The notes under the pieces: generated by a model | What the model was told of the DNA's origin: nothing | The model's database searches: none | What the model saw: the letters and a program-made list of their open reading frames with translations, nothing else | Assembly: GCA_946404845.1 (NCBI GenBank) | Contig: CAMJFD010000002.1 | Span: 1 to 42,876, forward strand | Length of the DNA: 42,876 nucleotides | Origin: an uncultured Butyrivibrio sp. | GTDB lineage: Bacteria; Bacillota; Clostridia; Lachnospirales; Lachnospiraceae | Direction: 5' to 3' | Part shown: positions 6,581-26,878 of the stretch, piece by piece | Layout: every line of letters begins with the position of its first letter | Position numbering within the stretch: the stretch's first letter is position 1 | Position numbers and translations under genes: made by a program

Positions 6581-6598
6581 AAGTAATATAATTATTCT

Positions 6599-6647
6599 AA
6601 AAGTCATTATACTTGGATTTGATATATCCAAGTATAATGACTTTTTA
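6599..6647. terminator. Bidirectional intrinsic terminator between convergent GH5 and pyruvyltransferase genes
   Basis: Perfect inverted repeat AAAAGTCATTATACTTGGA / TCCAAGTATAATGACTTTTT flanked by A-run and T-run. Confidence 0.88.
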
Positions 6648-6658
6648 ATCTGAATTAT

Positions 6659-7960
6659 TTATTTTAGTATTTTTCTGTATAAATTAAATGAACTGTCTAC
6701 TAAAGTATAGAAAGTTGACTTTTTATCTAAATCACTGGCTATTTTGGAAAGCGATTCAGAATTCTCTATAGTAGGAAGAGTACCTTCGTGATTACTTGGA
6801 AGGTTCACGAATATATTATCCTGATTTATATTTTCAACTAAATCACATTTCTTAAGGAAGTTTTCAAAAGCATCAAATTTAGCAGGATATGTTTTATTGA
6901 ATTCTGTATAATCAAGCTTTTCGTAAATATTCCAAATGTCTTTTTCTTTTTTGAGAGCAGCATCCGTTATAGTTGGTATATTATAATATTCTGCAATTTC
7001 CTGAGTGCGGCAGTCACAGATGTGAACCATTGCAGGAATACCTGACAGAATAGATGTTATATTACCATGAATGCGGGCTCCAAATGAAAATGTATAAGGA
7101 TTTAATTTAAGGAACTTAATCCAGTTCGGAATATCAGCAAACATAAGGAGCTTATTATTGGCAACAAGTTTAAGCCCAAGAAGCCCTTTGTCTTTGATAC
7201 GCATAATATTCTCTTTGGTAGAGTAGCTTGAATTATCAAAATAATCAGGCTGGTACAGATATCTGTAATAATGATCCTGGTCAATATAGATGCTATCAGG
7301 ATAATTATGGAATATATCATGATAGAACCTTGTATTTAAATGATAATTCTGACTATTGATAACAGCCTTAAATTTTGATCTATCTACATTCTGTTTGGTA
7401 ACAGCAAGATTTCTGCCCATCTGGAATAATGATGGACAACCTGCTACAACAGCATCATGGAATCCAAGTTTGTCAAAAAACTCTTTAGTAACATAGCCTC
7501 TTAAACAGAATTCACCGCCAGTTTTATAAACAGTATCAATAAATTCTGCAGACTCCTTACGTATGCGAGTTATAAGCGTATCCATGTTTTCAGGTTTATC
7601 CAGCTGTAGTCCGCAGGATATAACATAAACAGGTATTGATAACTGTTTGAAAAAGGTTGTAAGTTCAACCATATCTTTCATGAATTCCACAGAAAAAATA
7701 TTGGCACATGGCATTAGAACGCCATCATACTTTTCATTTATTTCTGCAGCTGTCATGTCCTTAGTTTTGAATTCATAGGATATATGCGGCGTTGTAATTT
7801 CAGATACAATACCTTCAAACCAGACTTTATTGCCCCAGTTAGGACAGTTACCATTTCTTTCATCTACAAGCTGTTTATATAGTGTAGAATAATCTGTATT
7901 ATCGAATAAACCATATTCTATTTCATTTACATCAACATAAATTAATATACGTCTAACCAT
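6659..7960 (-). CDS. Polysaccharide pyruvyl transferase family protein (CsaB-like)
   Basis: 'FCLRGYVTKEFFDKLGFHDAVVAGCPSLF' and 'FGARIHGNITSILSGIPAMVHICDCRTQEIAEYYNIP' are characteristic of the PS_pyruv_trans family. Confidence 0.85.
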   Translation of the reverse strand: MVRRILIYVDVNEIEYGLFDNTDYSTLYKQLVDERNGNCPNWGNKVWFEGIVSEITTPHISYEFKTKDMTAAEINEKYDGVLMPCANIFSVEFMKDMVELTTFFKQLSIPVYVISCGLQLDKPENMDTLITRIRKESAEFIDTVYKTGGEFCLRGYVTKEFFDKLGFHDAVVAGCPSLFQMGRNLAVTKQNVDRSKFKAVINSQNYHLNTRFYHDIFHNYPDSIYIDQDHYYRYLYQPDYFDNSSYSTKENIMRIKDKGLLGLKLVANNKLLMFADIPNWIKFLKLNPYTFSFGARIHGNITSILSGIPAMVHICDCRTQEIAEYYNIPTITDAALKKEKDIWNIYEKLDYTEFNKTYPAKFDAFENFLKKCDLVENINQDNIFVNLPSNHEGTLPTIENSESLSKIASDLDKKSTFYTLVDSSFNLYRKILK

Positions 7961-8128
7961 ATTTTACCTTTCCAAATACAATACATTTTATCAGAGCAAA
8001 GCGGTAAATTAAAGCGGTAGAGTAAATGTTTCAAAAGTGTAATAATTTAAGGATGATATAATAGAAAAATGTGGTACTAGTGTGATATACTCATTTATCG
8101 ATAACTGCATTCGAGAAAGGATGGAGAG

Positions 8129-9235
8129 TTGAAGGAAACTATCTTTAAAAAAATAGTGTTACTATTTTTTGCAATTGTTATTATTCCATGTATTTACTTA
8201 ATAGTAACTTATATAGGTTTACCACAATTACATATAAAAAAAGACTGTTCAGAGTCAAGAAAATTTGTTCAGTCAATGGGATCAGGAATAAATATTGGAA
8301 ATGCACTTGATTCATGTAACTGGGATTATATGTTTGTAACTGATACAGCTCCTCAGAGCTATGAAACATCATGGGGAAATGTTCGGGTTACAGATGATCT
8401 AATACAGATGATATCTGATAAGGGATTTAAAACAGTGCGAGTCCCTGTTACCTATATGAACCATATTGATGAAATGGGTAATGTGGATGAAGAGTGGCTA
8501 AAAAGAGTAGCAGAGGTTGTAGATATGGTCATAGCAAAGGATATGTACTGTATTATTGATATTCATCATGATACTGGTAATGATGGATGGATAAAAGCTT
8601 CTGAAGATAATTATGAATTAAATCATGAGAGAGTTACCAATATGATACTTCAGATAGCTGAGTATTTTAAAGATTACGATGAACATCTTATTTTGGAATC
8701 ATTTAATGAAATGGTAGATGATGAGACTAAGTGGACAAAGGTCCCATATACATCTCTAAAGGTATTCAATAAATGGAATCAGTTATTTGTAGATACCGTC
8801 AGGAGTACAGGTGGTAATAATTCTGACAGATATATACTTGTTAATACTTATGCGGCAACTTGTAATGACAGAAATATATACTTTTTTGAAATGCCGGATG
8901 ATACTGTAAACGATAGAATATTGGTTGGGGTGCATGGTTATACAAGTTATGATAATATGGATGAGTGCTTTGAAACTATACAGAAATTATATGACAGGGG
9001 CTATGCAGTTGTTATAGGTGAATTTGGTTCAACTGGAAATGCTGATTATGACAGAACTTATTACACCAGAGATTTTAAGAAATATTCTGATAGTATAGGT
9101 GCCTGTCCGATATTATGGGATGATGGAACAGGTGGAAAATCTTTGGATACAGGTGATATTACTAATTTTGCCATTATGAACAGAGTTGAATTATCCTGGT
9201 ATTTTCCAGAAATAGCACAAGCAATTATAGAGTAG
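8129..9235 (+). CDS. GH5-type endoglucanase-like protein, membrane-anchored (TTG start)
   Basis: N-terminal hydrophobic anchor 'IVLLFFAIVIIPCIYLIVTYIGL'; 'SGINIGNALD', 'YETSWGNVRVTDDLIQMISDKGFKTVRVPVTYMNH', 'HLILESFNEMVDD', 'AVVIGEFGSTG'. Confidence 0.87.
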   Translation: MKETIFKKIVLLFFAIVIIPCIYLIVTYIGLPQLHIKKDCSESRKFVQSMGSGINIGNALDSCNWDYMFVTDTAPQSYETSWGNVRVTDDLIQMISDKGFKTVRVPVTYMNHIDEMGNVDEEWLKRVAEVVDMVIAKDMYCIIDIHHDTGNDGWIKASEDNYELNHERVTNMILQIAEYFKDYDEHLILESFNEMVDDETKWTKVPYTSLKVFNKWNQLFVDTVRSTGGNNSDRYILVNTYAATCNDRNIYFFEMPDDTVNDRILVGVHGYTSYDNMDECFETIQKLYDRGYAVVIGEFGSTGNADYDRTYYTRDFKKYSDSIGACPILWDDGTGGKSLDTGDITNFAIMNRVELSWYFPEIAQAIIE

Positions 9236-9259: not shown

Positions 9260-9703
9260 ATGTCAGGTATTAATATAATTAGTTTTATTAGAGATAACGG
9301 AGAAAAAACGGTAACTATAAAGGCATATATGTATTCCTTTTATTACCGTTTTATGGTCATGCATGTACCAATGAATAAGATATATTTACGTCTTGGGCAA
9401 AAGGATCTTGAATCTCCCGTAGAAGAGAGCGAAGAAAATCTTAGAATAGCCAAATTATATGCATTTCATGTAAATAGAATAACAGAACATTTACCTTGGG
9501 ATGCAAAGTGTTTTGTAAGAGCACTTACACTTAAGAAATTACTGGGGCAGAAAAAAATTTCATGTACTATTTATCTTGGAATAAAAAAAGAAAATAATAA
9601 TCTATCTGCACATGCCTGGTTAAGATGTGGACTGTTATATTTATCAGGTGGAACAGGACATGATTATACCACTGTGGGGCGTTATGGAACTGTATTTGAG
9701 TAA
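9260..9703 (+). CDS. Lasso-peptide B2-like transglutaminase-superfamily leader peptidase
   Basis: 147 aa; 'WDAKCFVRALTLKKLLGQKKISCTIYLGIKKENNNLSAHAWLRCG' matches the Cys ... HAW pattern of the lasso B2 family (PF13471). Confidence 0.82.
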   Translation: MSGINIISFIRDNGEKTVTIKAYMYSFYYRFMVMHVPMNKIYLRLGQKDLESPVEESEENLRIAKLYAFHVNRITEHLPWDAKCFVRALTLKKLLGQKKISCTIYLGIKKENNNLSAHAWLRCGLLYLSGGTGHDYTTVGRYGTVFE

Positions 9704-9850: not shown

Positions 9851-9944
9851 CAAATCGTAGGGTAAACCTGTTGAAAGACAGGGGCACAAAGCTATAGGGT
9901 CTGAAAGTTTGGAATGACGAGTATGATAGCCTGGCCGCAGATTG
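9851..9944 (+). ncRNA. c-di-GMP-I (GEMM) riboswitch aptamer
   Basis: 'AGGGTAAACCTGTTGAAAGACAGGGGCACAAAGCTATAGGG...GAGTATGATAGCC' follows the GEMM-I pattern: GGxAAACC, P2 stem CCTGTT-GAAA-GACAGG (GNRA loop), GGCACAAAGC, then P3 GCTAT/ATAGC. Likely P1 AATC (9853-9856) / GATT (9940-9943). Confidence 0.85.
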
Positions 9945-9953
9945 TTTTGGTCG

Positions 9954-9988
9954 GGCATTACTAGACTATGGTAATGTCTATTTTTTTG
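9954..9988 (+). terminator. Riboswitch expression-platform terminator
   Basis: GGCATTAC (9954-9961) pairs with GTAATGTC (9971-9978), followed by TATTTTTTT; directly downstream of the GEMM aptamer and upstream of the 10044 CDS. Confidence 0.75.
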
Positions 9989-10043
9989 GTCTATTGGAAA
10001 ATATGAAGGGGCTTTAACATTTTCTTATGCAGGAGGACAACGA

Positions 10044-12371
10044 ATGAGAGAGACTAGGCAGTGCTTTAAGAGGAATGTGAAAGGTTTTATTGCGGGAATG
10101 GCATTTATATTTATTGGATTACTATTGATGCCACAGACATCTGTTAACAGTATAGCAGCTACTGATGAGGCTAAGGCTATTGTTAAGGAAGAACTTAAGG
10201 AGATGGTCCTTACTGCAGATGAGACTCACCACGACGTTTTAAAGTATAAGCTAACATGGAAAGAGTTATATGCAATATGGACAGATTTAGAAACGGGAGA
10301 CTGTTATGATGCAGTTAATTGTTATGATACAATTGCCATACAGACAACTAGATCAGGTAATTATATAAGTACAATTTACTTATATATGCAATTTGGATCT
10401 TCTTTTGAAGAGAACTTTGCTACCTTTAATGCCAAGACACAGGAAATCCTTAGTGGTTTACAGTCTGGTATGACAGATGCTGATAAAGCTCTGTATATTC
10501 ATGATGAAATCGACAAAATCACAAGTTATAAAAATATCGGATATGCATCCTATCATGCATGTGGACCACTTGTATATGGTCAGGCGATGTGTGAAGGCTA
10601 TGCAAATGCATATATCTATCTTCTGTCTAAGGCCGGAATTACAGCATACGAAGGCGGAAGCAACAGCATGAATCATGCATGGGTATATGTAAAACTTGAT
10701 GGTGAATTCTACAATGTAGATATTACATGGGATGATACCAGAAGGACTGGATCTACTCTTAATGGAGCATTTGATCATAAATATTTCCTGAGAACAGATT
10801 CAGAATTTACGTCTATGAATCATTACAGTTTCTACTGTATTGGTCATGATGATGTAACAGCTACATCATCTAAGTATAGTAACAGCTTTATACATAGTGT
10901 TGCAGGTTCTCTGTATTACTATGACGGATACTGGTATTATGCAGACGGCTCTTCAGTTAAATGTGCAACACTTACTGATTCTACAGGTAATGAAGTATTT
11001 ACAGCAAGTGGTAATGTGCAGCTTGTAAGTATTACAGATGGAATTATAAGTTATAAGGTAGGCAGCACAGACTACACATACAATCTTGTAATGGGATCAA
11101 ATGAAAAGACAGAAGAAGCTACAGTAGAAGAGCAGACAATAAATGCAAATATCGAAGAGTCTGCAACATCTGATTCTGCTACAACTGAAACTTCAACAAA
11201 TACAGCTGTAACTACTACAGAGACAACTGCTAAATATTATCTTGTAAAAGAAGGCGGAAGTCGTACAAATTATAAAGCAAGTAACTATATTAGCCTTGGT
11301 GCAGGAACTATCAAGGAAGCTGTTAAAATACAAAATGATAGTGATGCTATAGAGGCAAATCTTGGGACAGTACCTGACTATTCATCTTATGTAACAGAAA
11401 ATAATTATATTGAATGGTATTCAATTAAAAAAGAAAATGATGGCTGGCATGTAGATGGACAGATTATGACAAAAGAAACTACTACTGATGATTCTACAGA
11501 AGCTGTTAGTCCGGAAAATGTAAATAATTCATCAGAAGATACTGATACAACTGAGGATGCAGACACTGAAGAAAATGCAGACACTGAAGAAGATGTAGAT
11601 ACTCAGGAAGATACATCCAAGACAGAAGATAGTGAAAAAGAAGATACCACAAGTACAACAACTAATACATCCACAAATACATCAACTAGCACATCAACAA
11701 CTACTACAGGTATTACAGCTAAGTATTATTTGGTAAAAGAAGGTGGAAGTCGTACAAATTATAGTTCAAGCAATTATATAAGACTTGGAAGCGGTACTAT
11801 AAAAGAAGCCATAAGAATTAAGGATAATGAAGAAGCTATACTGGCAATTCTTCTTGATATACCTGATTATTCCAAGTATGTTAAAGATGGATATCATGTT
11901 GAATGGTATTCAGTAAAAAAAGAAGCCGATGGCTGGCATGTAGATGGTGAGATAATAAAAGATGAGATTGTAGAAGAAGTTGAAGAGGAAGAAGTAGAGG
12001 AAGAAGTAGAAGAAGTAGTAGAAACAGTAGTAGAAGCGACAAATGAAACTACAGAGGAAGCTACAGAAGAAAATACAGAAGCGACAGAAACTGAAACTAC
12101 AGAAATTGATTTCTCAACATGTACAGTAGCTAAGTTCTATCTTGCAAAAGGTAGCAGAACTAATTACTCTGCAAGCAATTATATAAGTCTTGGAAATGGC
12201 TATATTGTAGAAGCTGTGAAGATACAAAATGATGAGGAAGCCATCATAGCAAATCTCGCACAGATACCTGATTATTCAAGTTATCTTACAGAGAATCAGC
12301 GAGTAGAATGGTATTCTATCAAAAAAGAAGCTGATGGCTGGCACGTAGACGGCCAGATAGTAAGCGAATAA
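10044..12371 (+). CDS. Secreted transglutaminase-like protein with three C-terminal repeats and Thr/Glu-rich linkers
   Basis: Signal peptide 'GFIAGMAFIFIGLLLMPQTSVNSIAA'; transglutaminase core 'AMCEGYANAYIYLLSKAGITAYEGGSNSMNHAWVYVKLDGEFYNVDITWDD' (C/H/D triad); three 'AK(Y/F)YL..KEGGSRTNYxASNYI.LG.G.I.EA.....WYS.KKE.DGWHVDG' units. Confidence 0.87.
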   Translation: MRETRQCFKRNVKGFIAGMAFIFIGLLLMPQTSVNSIAATDEAKAIVKEELKEMVLTADETHHDVLKYKLTWKELYAIWTDLETGDCYDAVNCYDTIAIQTTRSGNYISTIYLYMQFGSSFEENFATFNAKTQEILSGLQSGMTDADKALYIHDEIDKITSYKNIGYASYHACGPLVYGQAMCEGYANAYIYLLSKAGITAYEGGSNSMNHAWVYVKLDGEFYNVDITWDDTRRTGSTLNGAFDHKYFLRTDSEFTSMNHYSFYCIGHDDVTATSSKYSNSFIHSVAGSLYYYDGYWYYADGSSVKCATLTDSTGNEVFTASGNVQLVSITDGIISYKVGSTDYTYNLVMGSNEKTEEATVEEQTINANIEESATSDSATTETSTNTAVTTTETTAKYYLVKEGGSRTNYKASNYISLGAGTIKEAVKIQNDSDAIEANLGTVPDYSSYVTENNYIEWYSIKKENDGWHVDGQIMTKETTTDDSTEAVSPENVNNSSEDTDTTEDADTEENADTEEDVDTQEDTSKTEDSEKEDTTSTTTNTSTNTSTSTSTTTTGITAKYYLVKEGGSRTNYSSSNYIRLGSGTIKEAIRIKDNEEAILAILLDIPDYSKYVKDGYHVEWYSVKKEADGWHVDGEIIKDEIVEEVEEEEVEEEVEEVVETVVEATNETTEEATEENTEATETETTEIDFSTCTVAKFYLAKGSRTNYSASNYISLGNGYIVEAVKIQNDEEAIIANLAQIPDYSSYLTENQRVEWYSIKKEADGWHVDGQIVSE
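11229..11465 (+). repeat. C-terminal protein repeat unit 1
   Basis: Encodes AKYYLVKEGGSRTNYKASNYISLGAGTIKEAVKIQ...WYSIKKENDGWHVDGQI. Confidence 0.8.
11718..11954 (+). repeat. C-terminal protein repeat unit 2
   Basis: Encodes AKYYLVKEGGSRTNYSSSNYIRLGSGTIKEAIRIK...WYSVKKEADGWHVDGEI. Confidence 0.8.
12129..12359 (+). repeat. C-terminal protein repeat unit 3
   Basis: Encodes AKFYLAKGSRTNYSASNYISLGNGYIVEAVKIQ...WYSIKKEADGWHVDGQI. Confidence 0.8.
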
Positions 12372-12500: not shown

Positions 12501-14435
12501 TTGGTTGGAGGGTTTATGTCAGCAATATATGGAGCAATTGATTTTGCAGGTCGTAGTATATCTGATGCAGAAATAGATATTTTAAAAAAGCCTTTTGAAA
12601 GATGCAGAATTGATAAATACACAGATAGAATTGATAGAAACGTATACATGGGATGCGGAAATCAATTCATTACAAAAGAATCAAGATTAGAAAAGCTGCC
12701 ATATTATGATGACAAATCTTTTTTTGATGCAGATATGATTCTGGATAACAGACAGGAAATCGCATTAGCCCTCGGGATAAATAATACAGAAATAGAATCT
12801 CATCCAGATGCAGAGCTGGCCTATAAATATATACAGCTACATGGAGCAGATGGACTTAATGATCTTCTGGGTGCATATGCGTTTGTATATTATAACAGAG
12901 ATAATAACAGACTTATGCTGACAGTAGATGCTGTTGGTAATAGATGTATTTATTATCGAATAGTCGGAACCACCTTTTATTATTCATCACTTATAGAATC
13001 ACTAGAAAATATCGCACCTTCTACTATCAACAACAGATGGATGTCAGACTATATAGCCATGGACTCGCTTATAATGATTGATGAATTGGAAGAGACTCCA
13101 ATAGCAGAAGTTAAGCGAGTTGCACCGGCATATTATGTAACATATGATGGCAACAATATTAATGCAATTCGTTACTGGGATGTTATAAGAGATAAAGGGG
13201 TAAGTAGTCTTAGATATAAGACAGATGATGAGTATAGAGAAGAATTTCGTAAACTGTTTTTTGATGCAGTTAAATGCGTACTTAGATCAGAAGATAAGAC
13301 ATCTATATTATTAAGTGGTGGATATGATTCCACAGCAGTAGCAGCAGTAGCAGCTCCTGAACTTGCAAAGCGTGGTCATAAATTATATTCATATACGTCA
13401 GTTCCACTTAAGGGGCTTGATACAGAGAGCAGAAATGGTGCATCTGTAGACGAATCACAGGATGTTCTTAAGACAAAAGAAATATATCCTAATATTGAAT
13501 GTGATTTTATGGATCTTAAGGATATAAAACTATGGAAAGACAGATCCAATATAATGAAAACACTTGAGATGCCATATAAGTCAATTCAGAATCTGTTATG
13601 GGTAAAACAGGCATATGTAAATTCTATGAATATAAATTCAAGAATATTGCTTATGGGTGAAATGGGTAACACGACAATTTCATATGGCAATTACAAACTG
13701 TATGTATATGATTTATTAAGGCACGGACATATAATTAAGATATTTACTGATACAAGAGCTTTTTGTCATAAAAATGGTTATGATACCAAATATTTTTTGA
13801 AATGCTTTTGGAAAGATGTATTTACCAGGAATGTAGTAAAAAGAGATCAATTATATGGTGATTCTTATGTTAATAAAAAGACTATAGAAAAATATGGAGT
13901 ATTTGAAAGACTCAGTGCTAATGAAAACGGTTATAACAAAGCAGGAAAAAGCTATCTGTCAGAGAGAAAACTTATAAATGAACTGTTTGCATTTAGACAA
14001 ATAGGTGAGCTAAATACTAAGCTGTCTCTTGAAACAGGTGTAATAATGCGAGATCCTACTAAGGATAAAAGAATTGTAGAATTCTGCATGAGGCTGCCAA
14101 TTAAAATATTCCAGAATGGTGCTGAGTGGAGGAGGCTCGTTAGTATATATCTTAAAGATATCATGCCGGAACATGTTCTTAAATCCAGTTTCAAAGGAAT
14201 GCAGAGTGCAGATTTTAAGAGCAGGATGGCTATGGAGATAGAAGACTTTAAAAATGATGCAAAAGAGCTTATAAAAAAAGCAGATAAAAACCCGAATCTT
14301 AAGAAAATAATTGACGTAAAAAGGCTTGAAAATGACATAGAAAACATAAGTGATTTTGGGAAACTAAATTCATTTGAGGTTAATAGATTGGTATATACTA
14401 TAGTATTTGTTGAATACTACTTAAATAAATATTAA
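12501..14435 (+). CDS. Asparagine-synthase-like lasso peptide macrolactam cyclase (C protein)
   Basis: N-terminal Ntn-like domain 'MSAIYGAIDFAGRSIS...LGAYAFVYYNRDNNRLMLTVDAVGNRCIYY' with Ser instead of catalytic Cys2; PP-loop 'SILLSGGYDSTAVAAVAAPELAKRGHKLYSYTSVP'. A RiPP precursor lies immediately downstream. Upstream in-frame start may be at 12516 (MSAIYG). Confidence 0.82.
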   Translation: MVGGFMSAIYGAIDFAGRSISDAEIDILKKPFERCRIDKYTDRIDRNVYMGCGNQFITKESRLEKLPYYDDKSFFDADMILDNRQEIALALGINNTEIESHPDAELAYKYIQLHGADGLNDLLGAYAFVYYNRDNNRLMLTVDAVGNRCIYYRIVGTTFYYSSLIESLENIAPSTINNRWMSDYIAMDSLIMIDELEETPIAEVKRVAPAYYVTYDGNNINAIRYWDVIRDKGVSSLRYKTDDEYREEFRKLFFDAVKCVLRSEDKTSILLSGGYDSTAVAAVAAPELAKRGHKLYSYTSVPLKGLDTESRNGASVDESQDVLKTKEIYPNIECDFMDLKDIKLWKDRSNIMKTLEMPYKSIQNLLWVKQAYVNSMNINSRILLMGEMGNTTISYGNYKLYVYDLLRHGHIIKIFTDTRAFCHKNGYDTKYFLKCFWKDVFTRNVVKRDQLYGDSYVNKKTIEKYGVFERLSANENGYNKAGKSYLSERKLINELFAFRQIGELNTKLSLETGVIMRDPTKDKRIVEFCMRLPIKIFQNGAEWRRLVSIYLKDIMPEHVLKSSFKGMQSADFKSRMAMEIEDFKNDAKELIKKADKNPNLKKIIDVKRLENDIENISDFGKLNSFEVNRLVYTIVFVEYYLNKY

Positions 14436-14527
14436 TTATTACAAATTTGTTGGAATCCTTGATATAGAGAATTAAAAAGGTACAATAAGTATATAAAATA
14501 ATTCTTATGAAAAAGGAGAACATAGGT

Positions 14528-14674
14528 ATGAAGAAGTGGAATGCACCAGAAATGGAAGAACTATTAATCAACGCTACAGCAAATGGTGCTGAGAAGAGTA
14601 ATGATTTTGATGGAGAATGGCAGCAGATTGATGGTAAGTGGTATTTACCAGGTTCTGGAAAGGCTAGTAACTAA
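14528..14674 (+). CDS. Candidate lasso-type RiPP precursor peptide (48 aa; not in the ORF track)
   Basis: RBS AAAAAGGAG upstream; translates MKKWNAPEMEELLINATANGAEKSNDFDGEWQQIDGKWYLPGSGKASN*. Leader 'WNAPEM' resembles the YxxPxL B1-recognition motif; Thr17 lies 10 residues after the Pro; small size; adjacent to the cyclase; followed by its own terminator. Confidence 0.78.
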   Translation: MKKWNAPEMEELLINATANGAEKSNDFDGEWQQIDGKWYLPGSGKASN

Positions 14675-14698: not shown

Positions 14699-14730
14699 AA
14701 GGTCGTGTATCTATATGCACGACCTTTTTT
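14699..14730 (+). terminator. Intrinsic terminator after precursor peptide
   Basis: AAGGTCGTG tatctatatg CACGACCTT followed by a T run (TTTTTT). Confidence 0.87.
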
Positions 14731-14753: not shown

Positions 14754-15737
14754 ATGAATGATAAGATATCCGTTATAGTTCCTATGTATAACGTAGAAAA
14801 ATATATAGCCAAATGTCTTGAGTCTGTTATGGGACAGACATATAAGAATATAGAAATCATTGTAATAGATGATGGCTCTACAGATGGAAGCCTTGATATA
14901 TGTAATTCGTATGCACAGAAGGATTCAAGACTAACTGTAGTCCATCAGGATAATAAAGGAGTATCAGCAGCCAGAAATAAGGGGCTTGAGTTGGCTACTG
15001 GAGATTATATAGGTTTTGTTGATTCTGATGATTATCTAGAACCTGAAATGTATAGTATTCTTATGGATCTCATTAAAGAAAATGATGCTGAAATAACAGC
15101 ATGTGCGTATAGGAAAGTATCGCCTGATGGAACATATGATAGGGATTTTGGTGATGATACAATAAACGTATATAAGGGAACAGATATGTTCAGAGCTTAT
15201 GTTACTAATTCTTGCATATCACCAGCAGTTGGGACCAAACTATATAAAAGAGAAATATTTGATGGTATAAGATTCATAGAAGGAATCATATATGAAGACA
15301 AGGATGTTATAAGTAGAACATTTATTAAGTGTCAAAAGGGCGTATTCATAAACAAATCGCTATATAATTACAGAACTAATCCTGACAGTCTTACACATCA
15401 TGACTACACAGATAAGACTATTAGAGATTATGTTCAGACTATAGGTATACAGCTTGATATAGTCCAAAATAATCTTAGTATAAATGATTATATTTTTTCT
15501 GCAGGAACAACATATATGATATTACTAAATATGTATTGTAATATATATAATAAAACTGATTTAAAAGCAACAAGAGATTATATTGCAAATGAAGCCGCTA
15601 AATATGTCAGCTATACAAAAGAGTTCATTAAGATAAGAAATCTTTCTAAAAAAGATGCCAACATGATCAGATTATCATTTATCTCTTTTAAGCTATACAG
15701 ATTTGTTCTTAAGGTAAGGCAGAAACTAGGAATATAA
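14754..15737 (+). CDS. GT2 family glycosyltransferase
   Basis: 'ISVIVPMYNVEKYIAKCLESVMGQTYKNIEIIVIDDGSTDGSLDICNSYA' and 'YIGFVDSDDYLEPEMYSIL'. Confidence 0.92.
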   Translation: MNDKISVIVPMYNVEKYIAKCLESVMGQTYKNIEIIVIDDGSTDGSLDICNSYAQKDSRLTVVHQDNKGVSAARNKGLELATGDYIGFVDSDDYLEPEMYSILMDLIKENDAEITACAYRKVSPDGTYDRDFGDDTINVYKGTDMFRAYVTNSCISPAVGTKLYKREIFDGIRFIEGIIYEDKDVISRTFIKCQKGVFINKSLYNYRTNPDSLTHHDYTDKTIRDYVQTIGIQLDIVQNNLSINDYIFSAGTTYMILLNMYCNIYNKTDLKATRDYIANEAAKYVSYTKEFIKIRNLSKKDANMIRLSFISFKLYRFVLKVRQKLGI

Positions 15738-15784: not shown

Positions 15785-16702
15785 ATGTATAAATATCGTG
15801 AATTCGGTTTTAATATAGAGTCATTTAAAGAAATATTAGAGGCACCTGTAGCAGATTTTGAAGGCACAGCTGATGTAGTAATACATGAAGAAGTTTTTTC
15901 CGAGGAACATCAAAAACTCTTTGATGGAATGAAAGATGAAATCAATCAGATGACGAGTGTTTCCAAAGATGAGATTATAATTGCTCATAAAGATTACGGT
16001 ATATTTGCATTTAGAAATGGAAACAGTATAGGATGTCAGCTTCTTGATACATGTACTACAGAGAGATTTACTATTTTTATGAACTGTTTTGCCATTGCAC
16101 ATTTGATGATACAGAGGAGAGAAGTGGCTATTCATGGAAGCGGATTAGAATATAAAGGTAAGGGTATTATTATATCTGGAGTCAGCGGAGCGGGCAAATC
16201 ATCTATAGCAGAAGAACTGCTTGGAAGAGGCTGCGGATTTCTGTCAGATGATCTTATTAGAATACTGCCTCAGGATAATGTGAATTATATATGCCCTGCA
16301 AATCCAGAGAGAAAGCTGTGCATAGATACTGCAGAAAAATACAATTATGATGCATCAAAGCTCAGAAGAGTTATAGATGAAGATAGAGAGAAGTATTATC
16401 TTACTGAGAATGACAAATATGTAGATAAACTAATAAAAGCAGAGCTATTCATAATACTTGATGTTGCTGATATTCCTGAAGTTGAGGTTCAGGAGATTAC
16501 AGGCGGAGATAAGATCAAACAGATTATGGAATGCCTGTTTAGGCTTAGTACTTATATCAGATTTGGGCAGGAGCCTGCATTATTTATGAAGATAATGAGT
16601 CTTGCAAATCAGATACATATGTATAGAATAATTAGACCGTCAAATGGTGATACTATTTCTCAGAGAGCGGACATTATTCTTGATACACTTGAGCATATCT
16701 GA
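15785..16702 (+). CDS. HPr kinase/phosphorylase-like protein (lasso K-type), copy 1
   Basis: Walker A 'GVSGAGKSSIAEELLGRGCGFLSDDLIRI' preceded by 'REVAIHGSGLEYKGKGIIIS', typical of HprK-like proteins in RiPP clusters. Confidence 0.78.
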   Translation: MYKYREFGFNIESFKEILEAPVADFEGTADVVIHEEVFSEEHQKLFDGMKDEINQMTSVSKDEIIIAHKDYGIFAFRNGNSIGCQLLDTCTTERFTIFMNCFAIAHLMIQRREVAIHGSGLEYKGKGIIISGVSGAGKSSIAEELLGRGCGFLSDDLIRILPQDNVNYICPANPERKLCIDTAEKYNYDASKLRRVIDEDREKYYLTENDKYVDKLIKAELFIILDVADIPEVEVQEITGGDKIKQIMECLFRLSTYIRFGQEPALFMKIMSLANQIHMYRIIRPSNGDTISQRADIILDTLEHI

Positions 16703-16750: not shown

Positions 16751-18064
16751 ATGCAGGAAGTTAATAGTAATAATTATTGGGATAGCAAATCAATAGAGAT
16801 ATTCTTAGGGCTTATTGGAGCATCTATAAATCCAGATAATATAGATGGCGCAGTTAAGAACCTTGATATAAAAAGCATCGATTGGAAAGAGGTATTTGAG
16901 GCTTCCAGAATAAATGGAACAAATGCATTGATGCTACCTGTAATTCAATATATACAGGAACAATACAATATAATAGATGATGATATTTATGATATGTGGA
17001 AGCTTACAACCAGAGGAATTATGGTATATGAACTTCCTAAATATACAGCAATTCGCAGAATTGTAAATGCGGCAGGAGACAAGAATATTCCTATAGTCTT
17101 TTTTAAGGGCATGATTCTGGCTGATCTGTATCCTAATTATCTCTATAGATCCAGTTGTGATTCAGATATATATGTGGATAAAAAAGATATAAAGGCTTTT
17201 GAGCAGCTGTTGCAAGAGCTTGGATATAAAAAGAAAGTTTCATCATCCAAGGAAGAAGTTCAGGTATATGAAAATAGTGATGCAACACATATGGTAGAAG
17301 CTCATACCTGTCTGTGGGAAGATTATAAGGGACCTAGGATGAATATTCTAGAAGGTCTTGGACTTACAGATGCAGATACATTTATCAATATGAATGCCTG
17401 TGGAATAGATATCACAACACTTGGACATGAGGAGCATCTTATATATCAGCTGTTCCATATAATTAAGCATTTTAGCCTTAATGGAATTGGAGTTAAGTAT
17501 CTGATAGATATAACATTATTTGTTAACAGATATTCGAGTCAAATAGATGCAAGGGACTTTTGGGACAAGATTGACAGACTTGGATATACCAAGTTTGCAG
17601 AATACTTTTTCTATATATGCCATAAATATCTAGGAATGACAGATGATATTTACGCTTATAGAAATCCTGTAATAGGTGATGATATCTTAAACTTTATAGT
17701 TGATCTTATAAGCGTTGGTAACATCAATGAAAGAGAAGCTGGATGGCAGATAATGGGAGCCATGGAAGCGTATTTTACAGGTAATGAGCGCATATCTGAT
17801 TCTAGATTCAAGAGGAAGATGCAGATGATATTTCCATCAGTAAAGGCTCTTCCAAAGGTATATGATTATGCCAAAAAGTATCCGGTATTATTGCCTGTTG
17901 CCTGGTTACACAGGGATATTAAATTTATAATCAAAAAGATAACTCAAAAAGATAATGTTTATGGTGTTACAGAAAAAATTGATGTGGCTGAGAACAGACT
18001 ATATCTCATCAAGCATCTGGGACTTGCAGATGCAATAAAAGATGAATGCAGAGATGATGATTAA
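16751..18064 (+). CDS. Nucleotidyltransferase family protein (PF14907-type, lasso N-type), copy 1
   Basis: 'IPIVFFKGMILADLYPNYLYRSSCDSDIYVDKKDIKAFEQLLQELGY' and 'HEEHLIYQLFHIIKHFSLNGIGVKYLIDITLFVNRY' match this family. Confidence 0.8.
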   Translation: MQEVNSNNYWDSKSIEIFLGLIGASINPDNIDGAVKNLDIKSIDWKEVFEASRINGTNALMLPVIQYIQEQYNIIDDDIYDMWKLTTRGIMVYELPKYTAIRRIVNAAGDKNIPIVFFKGMILADLYPNYLYRSSCDSDIYVDKKDIKAFEQLLQELGYKKKVSSSKEEVQVYENSDATHMVEAHTCLWEDYKGPRMNILEGLGLTDADTFINMNACGIDITTLGHEEHLIYQLFHIIKHFSLNGIGVKYLIDITLFVNRYSSQIDARDFWDKIDRLGYTKFAEYFFYICHKYLGMTDDIYAYRNPVIGDDILNFIVDLISVGNINEREAGWQIMGAMEAYFTGNERISDSRFKRKMQMIFPSVKALPKVYDYAKKYPVLLPVAWLHRDIKFIIKKITQKDNVYGVTEKIDVAENRLYLIKHLGLADAIKDECRDDD

Positions 18065-18122: not shown

Positions 18123-19109
18123 CTATTTAATTGAATAATATATTGGCAGCAGAAAACTGTATAGGCTGTATGTAAAGGCATTTACAGACTTCATGAATTT
18201 CGAATTCTTGCCAGTATAGTCTTTATAATATTTGTTCTGTTTCCAATCTGGAAAAGTAGTATTAAGCGTATCCCAGTTAGCTTTAAGTGCTTTGCGCCTG
18301 TCAGCTGAGTCTTTTATTCTGGCCATTCTGCCCATTGAACTGCATAATAGAATTCTGATATACAGAAATTCAAGAGCATCTCTGTATTCTGCAAGAAATC
18401 CTTTCTGCTCATAGAAGTTATATATGTCATTTAATATATCTATAATCTGCATGGTCTTAAGTGTCTGATGGTTATTTATAGAACTTCCACGCTGAACATA
18501 GTGTACATAGGCTCCATCAACATATTCAATCTTATTTAGGAATGGAACTATTTTGCAATAGAAGTTGACATCTTCATAAATAAGCCCTGATGGAAATCTT
18601 ACACCTGTACTTAGAAGCCAGGATGTTTTGTAGATTTTGTTCCATACTACGGAGCGGCCATTCATTATGAGTTCTTTGTTATCAGTAATAACTTCACCAA
18701 TTTCAGTATCTTCTGATGTTTCATAGGTATGATGCAGGTTGCATTCAACTATTTCGGCATTTGTAGATACAGCTTTGTTATACATATTTTCAAACATATC
18801 GGTATCTACATAATCATCTGAATCAAGGAAACCTACATATTCTCCATGAATATGCTCGAAGGCATAATTTCTGGCATCTGAGAGACCTGAATTTGGCTTG
18901 TTTAATATAGTTATTCTGGAATCTTTTGCGGCATATTCTTCCAGAATAGAAAGGCTATTATCTGTTGAACCGTCGTTAACAGCGAGTATTTCTATATCTT
19001 TGAGCGTTTGATTTATAAGAGAATCAAGACATTTAGGCAGATAGTCTGCAACATTATATACAGGAACGATAATGCTTATTTTTACGTTTTCTGTTTTTGT
19101 TTCACTCAT
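18123..19109 (-). CDS. GT2 family glycosyltransferase
   Basis: 'KISIIVPVYNVADYLPKCLDSLINQTLKDIEILAVNDGSTDNSLSILEEYA' and 'YVGFLDSDDYVDTDMFENMY'. Start moved to the internal Met (MSETKTEN) at 19109, preceded by an AGAGGT RBS; ORF-track start is 19157. Confidence 0.9.
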   Translation of the reverse strand: MSETKTENVKISIIVPVYNVADYLPKCLDSLINQTLKDIEILAVNDGSTDNSLSILEEYAAKDSRITILNKPNSGLSDARNYAFEHIHGEYVGFLDSDDYVDTDMFENMYNKAVSTNAEIVECNLHHTYETSEDTEIGEVITDNKELIMNGRSVVWNKIYKTSWLLSTGVRFPSGLIYEDVNFYCKIVPFLNKIEYVDGAYVHYVQRGSSINNHQTLKTMQIIDILNDIYNFYEQKGFLAEYRDALEFLYIRILLCSSMGRMARIKDSADRRKALKANWDTLNTTFPDWKQNKYYKDYTGKNSKFMKSVNAFTYSLYSFLLPIYYSIK

Positions 19110-19238
19110 AAAAAAGACCTCTTTACAAAAATAAAATGCCAGCAGCTTAGCTGACATTTTAATAATTTTAGTTTTTATATTAGATTTATAAAATAATAAA
19201 TATAAATCTATACCACATTATAATGAAAACATATGTGG

Positions 19239-19511
19239 TTATGCAAGTTCCACGAAATTGTTTTGCTGTAACTGATTGATAAAAGCAACAATTCCATTTA
19301 GACAAGTTTCCTCATCTACATCATATATTTTCTGCATTTTATTCAGGATATCTCCAATAGTTGTCTCTGATTGAATACACTCCCAAATATCAACTGCTGT
19401 CCCCTTCAGTAGAAAATACTTGCCTGATTCAAAATCTACTATGACTTTATCGCCAGCCATATCGGTAATATCAAGCTTTTTCAATAATCTTACCTGTGTT
19501 TCCTTATTCAT
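19239..19511 (-). CDS. PqqD family protein (lasso B1-like RiPP recognition element), copy 1
   Basis: 90 aa 'DKVIVDFESGKYFLLKGTAVDIWECIQSETTIGDILNKMQKIYDVDEETCLNGIVAFINQLQQNNFVEL' is a canonical PqqD fold pattern. Confidence 0.87.
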   Translation of the reverse strand: MNKETQVRLLKKLDITDMAGDKVIVDFESGKYFLLKGTAVDIWECIQSETTIGDILNKMQKIYDVDEETCLNGIVAFINQLQQNNFVELA

Positions 19512-19736: not shown

Positions 19737-20999
19737 TTGGAAGTAAATAAGGATATGGTAATTCAGTTTATTGAATTACAGAGAAGAGGCCTTGGTCTTA
19801 AGAAGGCGGAAGTTAATTTTGATAATTGTGACTGGGATATACTTATAAGGCATAGTTACAGAAATAAGACAACAATGCTTATTAATAATGCGGTCAATAA
19901 AGAACGCATGAATTATGATATAGATGAACATACACTTTCAGACTGGAATAATCTATCCAGACAGCTCTTTTTCAGAGGAATAAGGCAACTGTCAAGGTAT
20001 AAAGAGATTATGAAAATGCTACAGGACAATGATATTAAGCCTGTAGTGTTGAAAGGATACGCGCTTGCACAGCTATATCCTGATATAATTCAGAGGTACA
20101 GTAGCGATCTTGATATCAAATTTGAAGAGTCAGATAAAAAAAGAGTGACTCAGTTGTTCAAGAATTTTGGCCTTAAGCATGATATCGACGATAGCAAAGA
20201 AAACGTATATATTTTTTATGATGACAGTATTAGTATAGAAGCTCATTTTACATTATGGGAAGACTATGAAGGGCGTAATATTAATGTCCTTAAAAGAGAA
20301 CATTTAGATGATCCACGGACTATTATACCTGTACATCTTGGAGAGAGTGATATGCCAGATGGTTATTATGGATACACACTTGGAGTTACAGAACATTTGA
20401 TACTTCAGATGTTCCATGTTATCAAGCATTTTATTCTGGAAGGAATAGAAATTAGATATATGGTCGATCTCACACTCTTTATTAACAAATATGCCAGTGA
20501 GATTGATTTTGACAGATTCTGGAGAGTTATGTCAGATATGGAATTTGAAGAATATACTGTAATTTATTTTTCAGAATGTATTAAATTCTTTGACATGACA
20601 GAGAAGGCGTTAAATGGCAAAAAGTTCAGGCTTGCAGATGATGAATACGCTTTTTTGAATGATATGATGATGGTTGGCAAACAGAGCCTTGATGATACAT
20701 CAAGTTTTAGTATGCTTGGAATTCTGGGGCCATATGTAAATGGCGGCAAGAAACCTGCCATTGATAAAAAGGGAAGAGTTTTGGATGCTCTTTTCCCATC
20801 GGCAGAGAATATAGATAAAAAGTACGGATATTGTAAGAAATATCATTGTCTGTTGCCTGTAGCATGGGTTCACAGAGCATTTAGGACGATATTTATGAAG
20901 ATTACGAGGGGGAATAAGGTGTATGGTGCATCAGATAAGATAAAGGGTGCAGAATACAGAATCAGCATGATGCAGAACGCAGGAATGCTCAGAGAATAA
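19737..20999 (+). CDS. Nucleotidyltransferase family protein (PF14907-type, lasso N-type), copy 2
   Basis: 'IKPVVLKGYALAQLYPDIIQRYSSDLDIKFEESDKKRVTQLFKNFGL' and 'TEHLILQMFHVIKHFILEGIEIRYMVDLTLFINKY'; clear paralogue of 16751..18064. TTG start. Confidence 0.8.
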   Translation: MEVNKDMVIQFIELQRRGLGLKKAEVNFDNCDWDILIRHSYRNKTTMLINNAVNKERMNYDIDEHTLSDWNNLSRQLFFRGIRQLSRYKEIMKMLQDNDIKPVVLKGYALAQLYPDIIQRYSSDLDIKFEESDKKRVTQLFKNFGLKHDIDDSKENVYIFYDDSISIEAHFTLWEDYEGRNINVLKREHLDDPRTIIPVHLGESDMPDGYYGYTLGVTEHLILQMFHVIKHFILEGIEIRYMVDLTLFINKYASEIDFDRFWRVMSDMEFEEYTVIYFSECIKFFDMTEKALNGKKFRLADDEYAFLNDMMMVGKQSLDDTSSFSMLGILGPYVNGGKKPAIDKKGRVLDALFPSAENIDKKYGYCKKYHCLLPVAWVHRAFRTIFMKITRGNKVYGASDKIKGAEYRISMMQNAGMLRE

Positions 21000-21026: not shown

Positions 21027-22055
21027 GTGGTAGTACCAGTAGTTACAATTATTGTTCCTGTATATAATGCAGGGCAATACCTTGGAAGATGTATAGATAG
21101 CCTTTTGAACCAGACTTACAATAAATCAGACAATCTCGATATCATTGTAATTGATGATGGTTCATCAGATAATACCCAGATGGTCGGAGAAAGCTATGCT
21201 AAGGCGCATAGTAATGTTAATTATTACAGAACTGACCATGTGGGTGTATCATCTGCGAGAAATTACGGGCTTGACCTCGCCAGAGGAAAATATGTAATGT
21301 TCACAGACGGTGATGATTATGCTGAGAGAGAATATGTTGAGAAAATGGTTCATGAACTTGAAGCTGATGACAACATGATAATGTCAGTTTGTAGTTATAA
21401 CCGCATTATATGGAATAGAAGTTATAGCGTTGAACATCTCATACCATCTGGAATCCGAACATCAAGAGATTATCTTGTTGATACTCTTAAGAATCCAGGT
21501 CATCACTATTTTGGGGTTGTATGGAACAAGATATTCAGGATGGATATAATACGTGAGCTTGGGCTTAAGTTCAAGGATTATATTACACTTGGAGAAGATT
21601 TTGTTTTTGGCCTTGAATATCTAAGGCATTCAGGATATGTATCTGTAATAGATGATAAGCTCTATAATTACTGTTATGGTCATTCTGACAGTCTTTCAAG
21701 AGTATTGCAAAAAGAGATTGATGACTGCCGTGATGAAATGAATAACCGCAGACATATTTTTGAGGAATATGTCAAAAGCTTTGAGACTGAAGGTATTTAT
21801 AATAAATACGAAAAAATAATATACAGATATTGGATAGTTTTTTATAACAGGCAGTTATATTCATGTAAGCATGATTATAAGTGGAATAGCGCTGATATAA
21901 ATAATTGGATGAGCGAACTTGAAAATGAGAAGCTCATAATAGAGGCTAAAAAAATAGTATCTCCTTTTTACATAAGGAGACACTATTACTTATTTACTAT
22001 TGATCAGTCATTAAAGAAAAAAATCAAAAAGATAATACATTTATTTAGCAGGTAA
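21027..22055 (+). CDS. GT2 family glycosyltransferase
   Basis: 'VTIIVPVYNAGQYLGRCIDSLLNQTYNKSDNLDIIVIDDGSSDNTQMVGESYA' and 'YVMFTDGDDYAEREYVEKM'. GTG start. Confidence 0.9.
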   Translation: MVVPVVTIIVPVYNAGQYLGRCIDSLLNQTYNKSDNLDIIVIDDGSSDNTQMVGESYAKAHSNVNYYRTDHVGVSSARNYGLDLARGKYVMFTDGDDYAEREYVEKMVHELEADDNMIMSVCSYNRIIWNRSYSVEHLIPSGIRTSRDYLVDTLKNPGHHYFGVVWNKIFRMDIIRELGLKFKDYITLGEDFVFGLEYLRHSGYVSVIDDKLYNYCYGHSDSLSRVLQKEIDDCRDEMNNRRHIFEEYVKSFETEGIYNKYEKIIYRYWIVFYNRQLYSCKHDYKWNSADINNWMSELENEKLIIEAKKIVSPFYIRRHYYLFTIDQSLKKKIKKIIHLFSR

Positions 22056-22848
22056 CAGGGAGCTGTATGATAAATCTGGTGCCCTTATGGTGCTCGGGAT
22101 CAGATTCACAGCTGATTGTTCCGTCATGTATGGAAATGATTTTTTGGCATATAGATAATCCAAGACCTGCACCAGAATTTGAAGTAGGAGTCCTTGAAGT
22201 ATCTACCTTGTAGGAGCGGTCAAATATATGTGCAAGATCTTCATGTGATATGCCTTCTCCGTCGTCAGCAACTGTTATTATTACTTTATTACCAGCTATA
22301 GATGCTGAGAGCGTTATAGATGCGTCTGACGAAGTGTGCTTGAGCGCATTATTGAACAGATTATCAAGAACTCTGTTCATCTGCTGAGGATCTATTGATA
22401 TCAGATAGTCAAAGTTTTCTGGAACATCCAGTATCAGCTTTCGTCCATCATATTTGGAATCAGCTTCACACAAAAAGAAGAAATCTTCCAAAAATGGTCC
22501 GCAAGGAATATCCTCTTTTTTTAACATCTTATCTCCTGAGTTATCAAGTCTGGTTAATAAGAAAATATTGTTGATCATTGTCTGCAATGCATCTGTTCTT
22601 TCGTGAATAAGATGGATTGCCTTTTTTTGTTCTTCAGGTGAAATATCAAGATCAGATTCAAGATATTCAACTGCATTGTGAATAGCAGTAATAGGTGATC
22701 TTAAGTCGTGTGATATATTGGCAAATATTTCATCACGCTCTTTTATAATGCCGGCCATCTTTTGGTTTGCATCAAAAAGAGCATGAGACAGATCCTCTAC
22801 AGAAAGGGAAGGATCTGTATATTCATTTTTGATATTCTTTTCAGACAT
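22045..22848 (-). CDS. Sensor histidine kinase lacking transmembrane/sensor segments
   Basis: H-box 'FANISHDLRSPITAIHNAVEYLES', N-box 'NRVLDNLFNNALKHT', 'VADDGEGIS', 'GAGLGLSICQKII'. Confidence 0.92.
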   Translation of the reverse strand: MSEKNIKNEYTDPSLSVEDLSHALFDANQKMAGIIKERDEIFANISHDLRSPITAIHNAVEYLESDLDISPEEQKKAIHLIHERTDALQTMINNIFLLTRLDNSGDKMLKKEDIPCGPFLEDFFFLCEADSKYDGRKLILDVPENFDYLISIDPQQMNRVLDNLFNNALKHTSSDASITLSASIAGNKVIITVADDGEGISHEDLAHIFDRSYKVDTSRTPTSNSGAGLGLSICQKIISIHDGTISCESDPEHHKGTRFIIQLPVTC

Positions 22849-22874
22849 GTTGTGATTCTCCTGGTAGTAATAAG

Positions 22875-23558
22875 TTAATGAGGTATTATGAACTTATAAC
22901 CTTTTCCATAGTTTGTCTCGATACAGTTATCGAGACCTTTATAATTCTCGAGCTTTTTCCTGAGTCGGCTCGCCATAACCATGATAGAACGTCTGTCAGA
23001 TTCCTGATACACATTCCATATTTTGCGTCCAATTTCTTCAAATGTGATTATCTTATTAGGGTTTGAAACCAGATAATATAATAGCTCGTATTCTCTATTG
23101 GATAGCTGAATTTCTTCGGTCTGATTATAGTAGACCTTATGATTAGGCAGATCCAGTTTGAGCGGAGGATATGAAATTGTATTTGAGTTGGCAGAAGAGG
23201 ATCCTTTCCTGAGCTGTACAATTATTCTTGCAGATAATTCCTTAAGACTATATGGCTTAACGAGATAATCGTCAGCACCAGAGAGAAGACCAGTTACCTT
23301 GTCATCGTCACTATCCTTGCCAGTGAGGAATATAATAGGTGCTTTTGAGAACTTTCTAATCTGAGGAAGTGCTGTAAGACCATCAACATCCGGCATCATG
23401 ATATCTAAGAGGATGCAGTCTGGATGACTACTTTTAAGAGATTCCAGAGCAGGTGCAACGCTTTCAAATATCAGAACTTTATAGCCTTCTTTTTCAAAAT
23501 AGCTCTTATTTAGCTCCAGAACATCTTTATCATCATCAATTAGCATCAGTAGACTCAT
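22875..23558 (-). CDS. OmpR-family response regulator
   Basis: 'MSLLMLIDDDKDVLELNKSYFEKEGYKV', 'DCILLDIMMPDVDGL', 'APIIFLTGKDSDDDKVTGLLSGADDYLVKPY', C-terminal winged helix 'LSNREYELLYYLVSNPNKIITFEEIGRKIW'. Confidence 0.95.
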   Translation of the reverse strand: MSLLMLIDDDKDVLELNKSYFEKEGYKVLIFESVAPALESLKSSHPDCILLDIMMPDVDGLTALPQIRKFSKAPIIFLTGKDSDDDKVTGLLSGADDYLVKPYSLKELSARIIVQLRKGSSSANSNTISYPPLKLDLPNHKVYYNQTEEIQLSNREYELLYYLVSNPNKIITFEEIGRKIWNVYQESDRRSIMVMASRLRKKLENYKGLDNCIETNYGKGYKFIIPH

Positions 23559-23724
23559 ATAATTACATACTCCATTTCAAAATGAATCTTAACAAAAATG
23601 ATATTCTTTACAATACATATTTTAAAAATAAAAAAAATATGATATGGTTTCATCTTGGGTGCGAATATCTTTTGCAGATATGTACCATTATAATACAAGA
23701 ACTATAGACAGGAAAAGTAGGGTT

Positions 23725-25416
23725 ATGAAAACTAAGATAAAAAAATACATCAATAAATACAAGCAGGAAAAGAGCAGAGGACGTAATTATTTCAAGTGGC
23801 TTACGGATTATACAAAGCCATATATGTGGAAAATAATAGCTCTAATGGCTATCAGTATAGCCATGACTTATGTCAGTATTTATTATGCTATTATTTCCCA
23901 GAAACTTGTCGATCTTGCAGGTGAGGGAATTACTGATAAGAGAGTAATTATAATCTATATGTTCCTGATATTTTTCCAGCTGGGTGTTAATGCTGTGACA
24001 GATCTTGCCCTTGCAATGATCAATGAGAGATATTCATTTGGTATTAGAAAACAGGTATATGACAAGCTCCTTAGATCATCATGGCTGGGAACACAGAAGT
24101 TCCATACAGGTGATATGATGACCAGAATGACAAGTGATGCTGGTAATATCGCAAATGGTATGGTCAATGTCATTCCTAACATTATTGTACTTATGGTTCA
24201 GCTCATTTCAGTATTCATAACCTTTTATATTTATTCACCATTCCTTGCAGTATCTGCTCTGTGCCTTACACCTATGGGGCTTCTCGCTGCATATGTTCTG
24301 GGACGTAAGCTCAAGAAATTACAGGAAAATGTACTTAGGACTGAGACAGCATACAGATCATTCATACAGGAGAGTCTTGCTAATATCATGGTTGTAAAGG
24401 CTTTTTCGAATGAAGAGTCTTTTTCTGAGCAGCTTGTAAAACTGCGTGAAGAGAGATTTTTCTGGGTATGGAAAAAAAGTAAGATGAGTACTCTTACCAA
24501 TACTGTAATGATGGCAACTTTTAATATTGGTTCCATGCTGGCTTTTTTATATGCTGCTTACGGTATTTCAAAAGGCGAGATAACATTTGGTACTATGACT
24601 CTTTTCCTTACTCTTTTTAGTAAGATACAGGCGCCTATCATAAGTCTAGCAAGTCAGCTCCCTGGAGTTGTTTCTATATTTGCTTCTGCAGGACGAGTTA
24701 TGGATATTCAGGATATAGCTTATGAGAAGAGACTAGAAGAAGTAACTATGGAGGGTTCTGTTGGTGTTGAAGTAAGAGCGGCATCATTTGCATATGCAGA
24801 AGACAATGTGCTTGAGGACGTTAATTTTGAAATTAAGCCATCAGAATTTGTAGCTATAGTAGGTAAGTCGGGTATAGGTAAGACTACGCTTATAAGGCTA
24901 CTTATGAGTTTTGTGGATGCTAGAAGTGGTGATATTACATACAAGGACAACTATGGACATCAGACACCTGTAAATGCATCTGTAAGATCATTTATTTCAT
25001 ATGTACCACAAGGTAATACACTTTTTTCTGGAACAATTAGAGACAATATTCTTATGGGCAAGATGGATGCTACAGAAGATGAAATAAATGAAGCACTGGA
25101 AATGGCTGTTTGTAATGAATTTATAGGAAGACTTCCTAATGGACTAGATACAGTTATTGGAGAAAAAGGTGTGGGTCTTTCTGAAGGTCAGGCACAGCGT
25201 ATCGCAATAGCAAGAGCGCTTATCAAGAAATCTCCATTTATGATACTTGATGAAGCAACATCAGCACTTGATGAAGATACAGAGCTAGAGCTTTTAAAGA
25301 AGATTGGAAACATGAATCCAAAGCCAACATGCCTTCTAATAACTCACAGACGCAGCATACTACAGTATTGTTCAAGAGAAATCAAGATTTCTGATAAACA
25401 TGTATATGTAAGCTGA
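23725..25416 (+). CDS. ABC transporter, fused permease/ATP-binding exporter (lasso D-type candidate)
   Basis: Six-TM ABC exporter N-domain plus 'VAIVGKSGIGKTTLIRLLM', 'GLSEGQAQRIAIARALIKKSPFMILDEATSALD'. Start moved to ATG 23725 (MKTKIKKYINKYKQ); ORF-track start is 23644. Confidence 0.92.
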   Translation: MKTKIKKYINKYKQEKSRGRNYFKWLTDYTKPYMWKIIALMAISIAMTYVSIYYAIISQKLVDLAGEGITDKRVIIIYMFLIFFQLGVNAVTDLALAMINERYSFGIRKQVYDKLLRSSWLGTQKFHTGDMMTRMTSDAGNIANGMVNVIPNIIVLMVQLISVFITFYIYSPFLAVSALCLTPMGLLAAYVLGRKLKKLQENVLRTETAYRSFIQESLANIMVVKAFSNEESFSEQLVKLREERFFWVWKKSKMSTLTNTVMMATFNIGSMLAFLYAAYGISKGEITFGTMTLFLTLFSKIQAPIISLASQLPGVVSIFASAGRVMDIQDIAYEKRLEEVTMEGSVGVEVRAASFAYAEDNVLEDVNFEIKPSEFVAIVGKSGIGKTTLIRLLMSFVDARSGDITYKDNYGHQTPVNASVRSFISYVPQGNTLFSGTIRDNILMGKMDATEDEINEALEMAVCNEFIGRLPNGLDTVIGEKGVGLSEGQAQRIAIARALIKKSPFMILDEATSALDEDTELELLKKIGNMNPKPTCLLITHRRSILQYCSREIKISDKHVYVS

Positions 25417-26366: not shown

Positions 26367-26513
26367 CACTTCAAAATAAAGCGATATAGGAAACTAACCA
26401 AATTGATAGCTTTGTTTGCTTATAATATTTGAAATATGATTGATTTTAAGATAAGGAATTTGCTAATATGAGAAATGCTTGGAATTATATAATTTATAAT
26501 AGGGAGAAATATA

Positions 26514-26774: not shown

Positions 26775-26830
26775 TAGTAATTTGATATAATATAATTACT
26801 ATAGCTAATAAAAATGATGTAAAACCAACA

Positions 26831-26852: not shown

Positions 26853-26878
26853 ATAACTATTTGAGAAAGGTATTTGTT

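Follow-up and report, generated by a model that had tools for sequence, protein, structure and literature searches.

Positions 14528-14674 of a 42,876-nucleotide stretch of DNA from an uncultured Butyrivibrio sp., hereafter the window, almost certainly encode, on the evidence of their sequence, the precursor of a lasso peptide, one of the small knotted peptides produced by many gut bacteria. The best overall explanation, held here with considerable confidence, is that this precursor would be cut after N19, closed into a ring between G20 and D28, threaded, tailored and exported, and a vaguely 'lasso-like' ORF thus becomes a precise prediction of a G20-D28 ring in a 29-residue core. The precursor joins a family already predicted in 2020 (PMC7533575), whose ring assignment is sharpened here. 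Less expected, and the chief novelty, is the conserved presence next to it of a secreted transglutaminase-like protein (TG), often behind a c-di-GMP riboswitch.

The ORF translates as MKKWNAPEMEELLINATANGAEKSNDFDGEWQQIDGKWYLPGSGKASN* (48 aa and a stop), reproducing the coordinates, translation and leader letters of the preliminary description, and the translation bears out both its W-x-x-P-x-M motif and its Thr 10 residues past the Pro (P7 to T17). As described, the gene lies directly after the cyclase, which ends at 14435, with a gap of 92 bp. Whole-genome searches recovered relatives in genomes of the same family (E 4e-15 to 2e-13, 57-61% identity), so 14528-14674 is a real gene; a chance ORF is ruled out, as other species carry relatives within their lasso cyclase clusters. 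The claimed ribosome binding site and terminator are both present, the former as a Shine-Dalgarno AAGGAG upstream of the ORF and the latter as a hairpin of 12 pairs followed by a T run, of which 0.1 would be expected in shuffles. The transcript of its own that had been claimed with them is presumed, since promoter-like sites are no more frequent than chance (2 found vs 2.8 expected; best 14459-14486, 10/12).

The window contains a complete split-B lasso cluster (A-B1-B2-C-kinase-NT-exporter; see table), with all three of the B1, B2 and C proteins that mark the lasso class, and this full gene set, together with homologs of the precursor in cyclase clusters, supports the earlier lasso-like reading. 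The PqqD gene that the preliminary description lacked was located as B1. The only PDB relative of B1 is PbaB1 (9x90, E 9e-8), an RRE with a demonstrated preference for WxxP leaders (PMC13381572). The PDB contained no credible relative of B2, whose catalytic C84 and H118 are intact and invariant in 30/30 aligned rows. Homologs of C start at codon 12516 (MSAIYG), giving C an extent of about 12516-14435. Narrower models scored below their curated cutoffs (NF033535, 185 vs 525; NF033536, 66.8 vs 80). The kinase carries the His-Lys-Asp-Asp residues of the HprK-type enzymes of the paeninodin family (H117, K138, D155 and D156). A phage family search and a scan of viral contigs returned nothing.

Table. 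Features of the window and, in the last rows, riboswitch and TG units beside cyclases at other loci (coordinates of the respective locus).
Feature	Position	Strand	Remarks
B2 leader peptidase (Transglut_core3)	9260..9703	+	NF033537 61.7 bits, cutoff 33
c-di-GMP-I riboswitch aptamer	9851..9942	+	RF01051, 53.3 bits, gathering 35
Riboswitch and TG unit	9851-12371
Secreted transglutaminase-like protein (TG)	10044..12371	+	three ~80-aa C-terminal repeats
C macrolactam cyclase (GATase and Asn_synthase)	12501..14435	+	PF00733 50.0 bits, above cutoff
Lasso precursor A	14528..14674	+	48 aa; leader M1-N19 (W4xxP7xM9, T17), predicted core G20-N48 (29 aa), tail GEWQQIDGKWYLPGSGKASN
Predicted ring GAEKSNDFD, residues 20-28	14585..14611	+	conserved G (T+3) and D (T+11); predicted from sequence, not from chemistry
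Intrinsic terminator downstream of precursor gene	14699..14726	+
GT2 glycosyltransferase	14754..15737	+
HprK-like kinase	15785..16702	+	H117, G135/G137-K138-S139 and D155-D156 invariant, 30/30 rows
NTP_transf_5 (PsmN-like) tailoring protein	16751..18064	+
GT2 glycosyltransferase	18123..19157	-	conserved next to B1 in several clusters
B1 / PqqD RiPP recognition element	19239..19511	-	PF05402 65.7 bits
Second NTP_transf_5-like protein (conserved neighbour NT2)	19737..20999	+	likeness to 16751-18064 by eye and conservation
GT2 glycosyltransferase	21027..22055	+
Histidine kinase (22045-22848) and response regulator (22875-23558)	22045..23558	-	from translations; conserved cluster neighbours
MsbA-like ABC exporter (probable D protein)	23644..25416	+
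Riboswitch and TG unit, L051	15266-17914
Riboswitch and TG unit, L053	7030-9675
Riboswitch and TG unit, L056	7807-9935
Riboswitch and TG unit, L076	7342-9467

Precursors 56-64% identical to that of the window were found in lasso cyclase clusters of Falcatimonas sp. MSJ-15 (L051, 3 copies) and Butyrivibrio sp. NC3005 (L072, 3 copies), and further hosts are uncultured Lachnospiraceae (L053/L054), host names being taken from one scan of genome contigs with cyclases as queries; at each of these loci a lasso cyclase gene lies in the same cluster. The NC3005 precursors have been published as predicted lasso precursors (PMC7533575, Table 3), and no laboratory test of the NC3005 or the window cluster was found in the literature searched. 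All three are 62-64% identical to the window precursor and share with it a leader of the type MKWNAPVMEELNINATAN, the G1...D9 spacing and a tail of the form W-x-x-I-N-G-K-W-Y-x-P-G-x-G, and the NC3005 cluster likewise encodes a cyclase (41% identical), B1, B2, kinase, ABC and TG proteins. The window differs in having one precursor copy rather than three, a shorter C-terminus and two additional NTP_transf_5-type proteins. Two of the NC3005 genes, at 11995 and 13293 of L072, have identical 52-aa products and the third differs by few residues, apparently a recent duplication.

The leader has the [Y/W]xxPx[hydrophobic] form of lasso leaders with a Thr near the cut (W4xxP7xM9 and T17, homologs alike); M9 lies outside the listed L/V/I/A/F/Y at the last motif position, yet is hydrophobic. 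The preliminary description had called the motif a variant, a label that does not hold because WxxP is what the leaders of paeninodin-like Bacillota lasso peptides normally carry (PMC13381572), and the B1 relative PbaB1 reads WxxP. With paeninodin and pseudomycoidin of the Bacilli the window cluster also shares the split B1/B2, C and an HprK-type kinase. Unlike paeninodin, the precursor scores below the cutoff of the paeninodin family model NF033524 (17.8 bits vs 27; homologs 15.7 and 17.5), and its core ends in ...GKASN rather than in the Ser that is the kinase substrate, while its homologs end in SDK, SEAK, IAQ, TAH or EES. The spacing from Thr to Asp is 11 here vs 10 in a paeninodin-like sequence from Bacillus cereus KPR-7A (PMC7533575).

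The ring was assigned from precursors lying near cyclases and picked by leader pattern only (M[KR]..[WFY]xx[PALS]...T), so that core residues were free to vary. This gave 71 sequences, 63 of them non-redundant at 70% (an earlier set comprised 55). Asp occurs exactly at T+11 in 46/63, against a best Asp column of <=18 in 2000 within-sequence shuffles, and Gly stands at T+3 in 46/63, while Asp at T+9 is rare (4/63). Within the set with Asp at T+11, the residues at T+3 are narrow in range (G 37, S 4, H 2, and K, Q and N 1 each) and those at T+2 are broad and frequently bulky (Q, G, F, N, Y, H and others). The five closest distinct homologs all retain G20 and D28 but have Asn at the position of D26, and the close family reads TANG...NFD..W..I.GKWYRPG.G. 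D28 is therefore the predicted ring acceptor, given its conservation at T+11 and its invariance where D26 is replaced, and G20 is the likeliest first core residue, with a cut after N19, because T+3 is mostly Gly and sometimes Ser whereas T+2 may be anything. The predicted nine-residue ring G20-D28 (G1-D9), with Thr at -3, has the small first residue and the acid at 7-9 expected of lasso cores, both conserved across the family. Homologs without conserved Gly/Asp spacing had been named beforehand as grounds for refutation; the spacing is strongly conserved. The arithmetic of the core options in the preliminary description (N1/D8, and G1 with D7 or D9) is correct, and the core start that it left ambiguous is now largely settled, the remaining choice being a cut before G20 or before N19.

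A core beginning with G20 would place T17 at -3, and one beginning with N19 would place it at -2. A cut after A18, which would give a ten-residue ring N19-D28, is an unlikely alternative. Lasso rings known to us have 7 to 9 residues, and ten would be larger. Experimentally validated leaders have Thr at -2, with Ile there in one case (PMC10368454), Asn at residue 1 has one precedent in the reported lasso peptide metanodin and is thus chemically possible (PMC12670498), and the W-to-T spacing of 13 fits PbaA with its W-15 (PMC13381572) if the PbaA Thr is at -2, which would place the cut before N19. The residue variation points the other way: T+2 varies widely and many of its residues are bulky (Q, F, Y, H), whereas T+3 is mostly Gly or Ser; furthermore, with the acid at T+10 or T+11, a start at T+3 yields the usual rings of 8 or 9 and a start at T+2 rings of 9 or 10. 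The NC3005 homologs were themselves predicted to be cut before the Gly, with Thr noted at -3 (PMC7533575). If every Thr lay at -2, ten-residue rings would be expected for most of the clade. A rule is broken either way, by Thr at -3 in a whole Bacillota lasso group or by ten-residue rings. The N19-D26 ring (N1-D8), the first option of the preliminary description, combines Thr at -2 with an eight-residue ring in this one sequence, but deserves practically no credence and is ruled out by Asn at the D26 position in 5/5 close homologs with D28 invariant, and by the scarcity of Asp at T+9.

Two groups of cyclase-adjacent precursors depart from the common form. Those at L028:3506, L046:3941, L047:10908, L062:9726 and L071:12123 contain D-G-G-Y-[IL]-G-D-G-x-[IVL]-S-G and have Lys, Gln, His, Asn or Ala at T+3, forming a putative separate subfamily with an unusual first residue. 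At L037:10618, L045:10607, L069:16190 and L070:12132 the common WxxP/TA leader precedes Cys- or Pro-rich cores that lack Asp at T+11, so another product type may share this leader.

For the G20-D28 lasso peptide, the chemical steps, threading and modifications that we infer begin with B1, which would grip the leader motif W4xxP7, although the kinase may act first on the precursor. B2 would cut after N19, and C would activate D28 and join it to the amino group of G20 to give a nine-residue macrolactam (-18 Da) with the tail threaded. The likeliest plugs are W38/Y39, since no other two aromatic residues of the tail are adjacent. A serine close to the C-terminal end (S47 or S43) may receive a phosphate from the kinase and a hexose from the NTP_transf_5 protein, and the ABC protein would export the product. 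The kinase and NTP_transf_5 protein together point to serine phosphorylation and hexosylation by analogy with pseudomycoidin, in which the NTP transferase-like PsmN is needed for hexose addition; PadeK-type kinases use a terminal Ser (PMC9266682), and the core here ends S-N instead. Membership of the lasso class makes an antibacterial role of the product likely.

Threading is beyond what a sequence can demonstrate, and the cluster has an RRE, HprK-like kinase, NTP transferase and MsbA-like exporter in common with those of linear polyphosphorylated peptides (LPP), which often adjoin lasso clusters (PMC13381572). The peptide could therefore be cyclised by C but unthreaded, or linear and solely phosphorylated or glycosylated as in the LPP family. 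This is very improbable: the cluster keeps conserved C and B2 proteins, and the precursor has a conserved acceptor Asp behind a WxxP leader of the lasso type, whereas LPP clusters are without cyclase or B2 and have a YxxP leader and a SipW-like leader peptidase (PMC13381572). The proposal that WQQIDGKWY in the tail binds cell walls as a choline-type repeat, thereby directing the peptide to envelopes, arises from weak matches to Pfam Choline_bind_1 in three family members (E 0.0099, 0.034 and 0.13) and from a PDB choline binding protein at E 2.5. It is extremely doubtful and was rejected, all matches being 9-10 residues long and under the curated cutoff (PF01473, 16.6 bits over 10 residues vs a gathering score of 20.5), with three close homologs giving no match; other tails of the family show only a looser pattern (a turn Gly at about core 17, aromatics at about core 19-21) that suits a lasso loop and plug equally.

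TG lies beside the cyclase in 11 loci, upstream and on the same strand in ten and divergent in L055. In a maximum-likelihood tree of cyclases (39 rows), 11/11 TG loci fall into one 16-row clade (support 99/94) and 0/23 elsewhere; two of the 5 clade members without TG (L054, L059) are on contigs too short to tell. Among 397 genomes of the same family, a cyclase lies close to 5/6 of the strongest matches to the TG N-terminus, a count that includes the TG of the window; the sole exception is in G131 (L077). By these counts TG is a conserved partner of one well-supported cyclase clade. TG follows a c-di-GMP-I riboswitch in the window, in L051 (one TG copy), L053, L056, L057, L058 (two each) and L076, and none was found in L052, L055, L072 and L033. 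Twelve lasso loci without TG were scanned, with such a riboswitch in L063 only, and the window's own genome has seven in all. Terminator-like hairpins, identified by eye, separate TG from C in four loci (window, L053, L056 and L076), so the riboswitch probably governs TG alone, and control of the lasso genes themselves is unsupported.

TG may serve in anchoring, in self-protection by cleavage, or merely be co-inherited with the lasso cluster. A tentative and rather doubtful reading is that, in this Lachnospiraceae clade, the secreted and often c-di-GMP-switched TG works at the cell surface on the lasso peptide or together with it, by anchoring, self-protective cutting or presenting it, with lasso action tied to the sessile state and the leader Thr read at -3. 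The conservation of TG suggests that c-di-GMP signalling and a secreted transglutaminase-like protein are linked to the lasso clusters of rumen and gut bacteria; within the literature searched, no paper joining lasso peptides, c-di-GMP and riboswitches was found.

A second RiPP-like locus lies at 25461-27612 of the window, with an HprK-like protein, an 86-aa ORF at 26514 that is rich in Cys and Tyr and has a YxxP leader (MKKVYEKPELNES...), a PqqD at 26861 and, at 27145, a protein with weak likeness to signal peptidase I. It resembles the LPP family, a frequent neighbour of lasso clusters, and partly matches the LPP leader consensus. Just upstream of B2, positions 5057-9235 encode two secreted proteins resembling GH5 cellulases and a polysaccharide pyruvyl transferase (6659-7960, minus strand), and 28161-30689 holds genes that by eye resemble those for exopolysaccharide synthesis (a glycosyltransferase pair and an undecaprenyl-phosphate sugar transferase). 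The RiPP loci of the window adjoin a polysaccharide region, as described for LPP and lasso loci in Bacilli.
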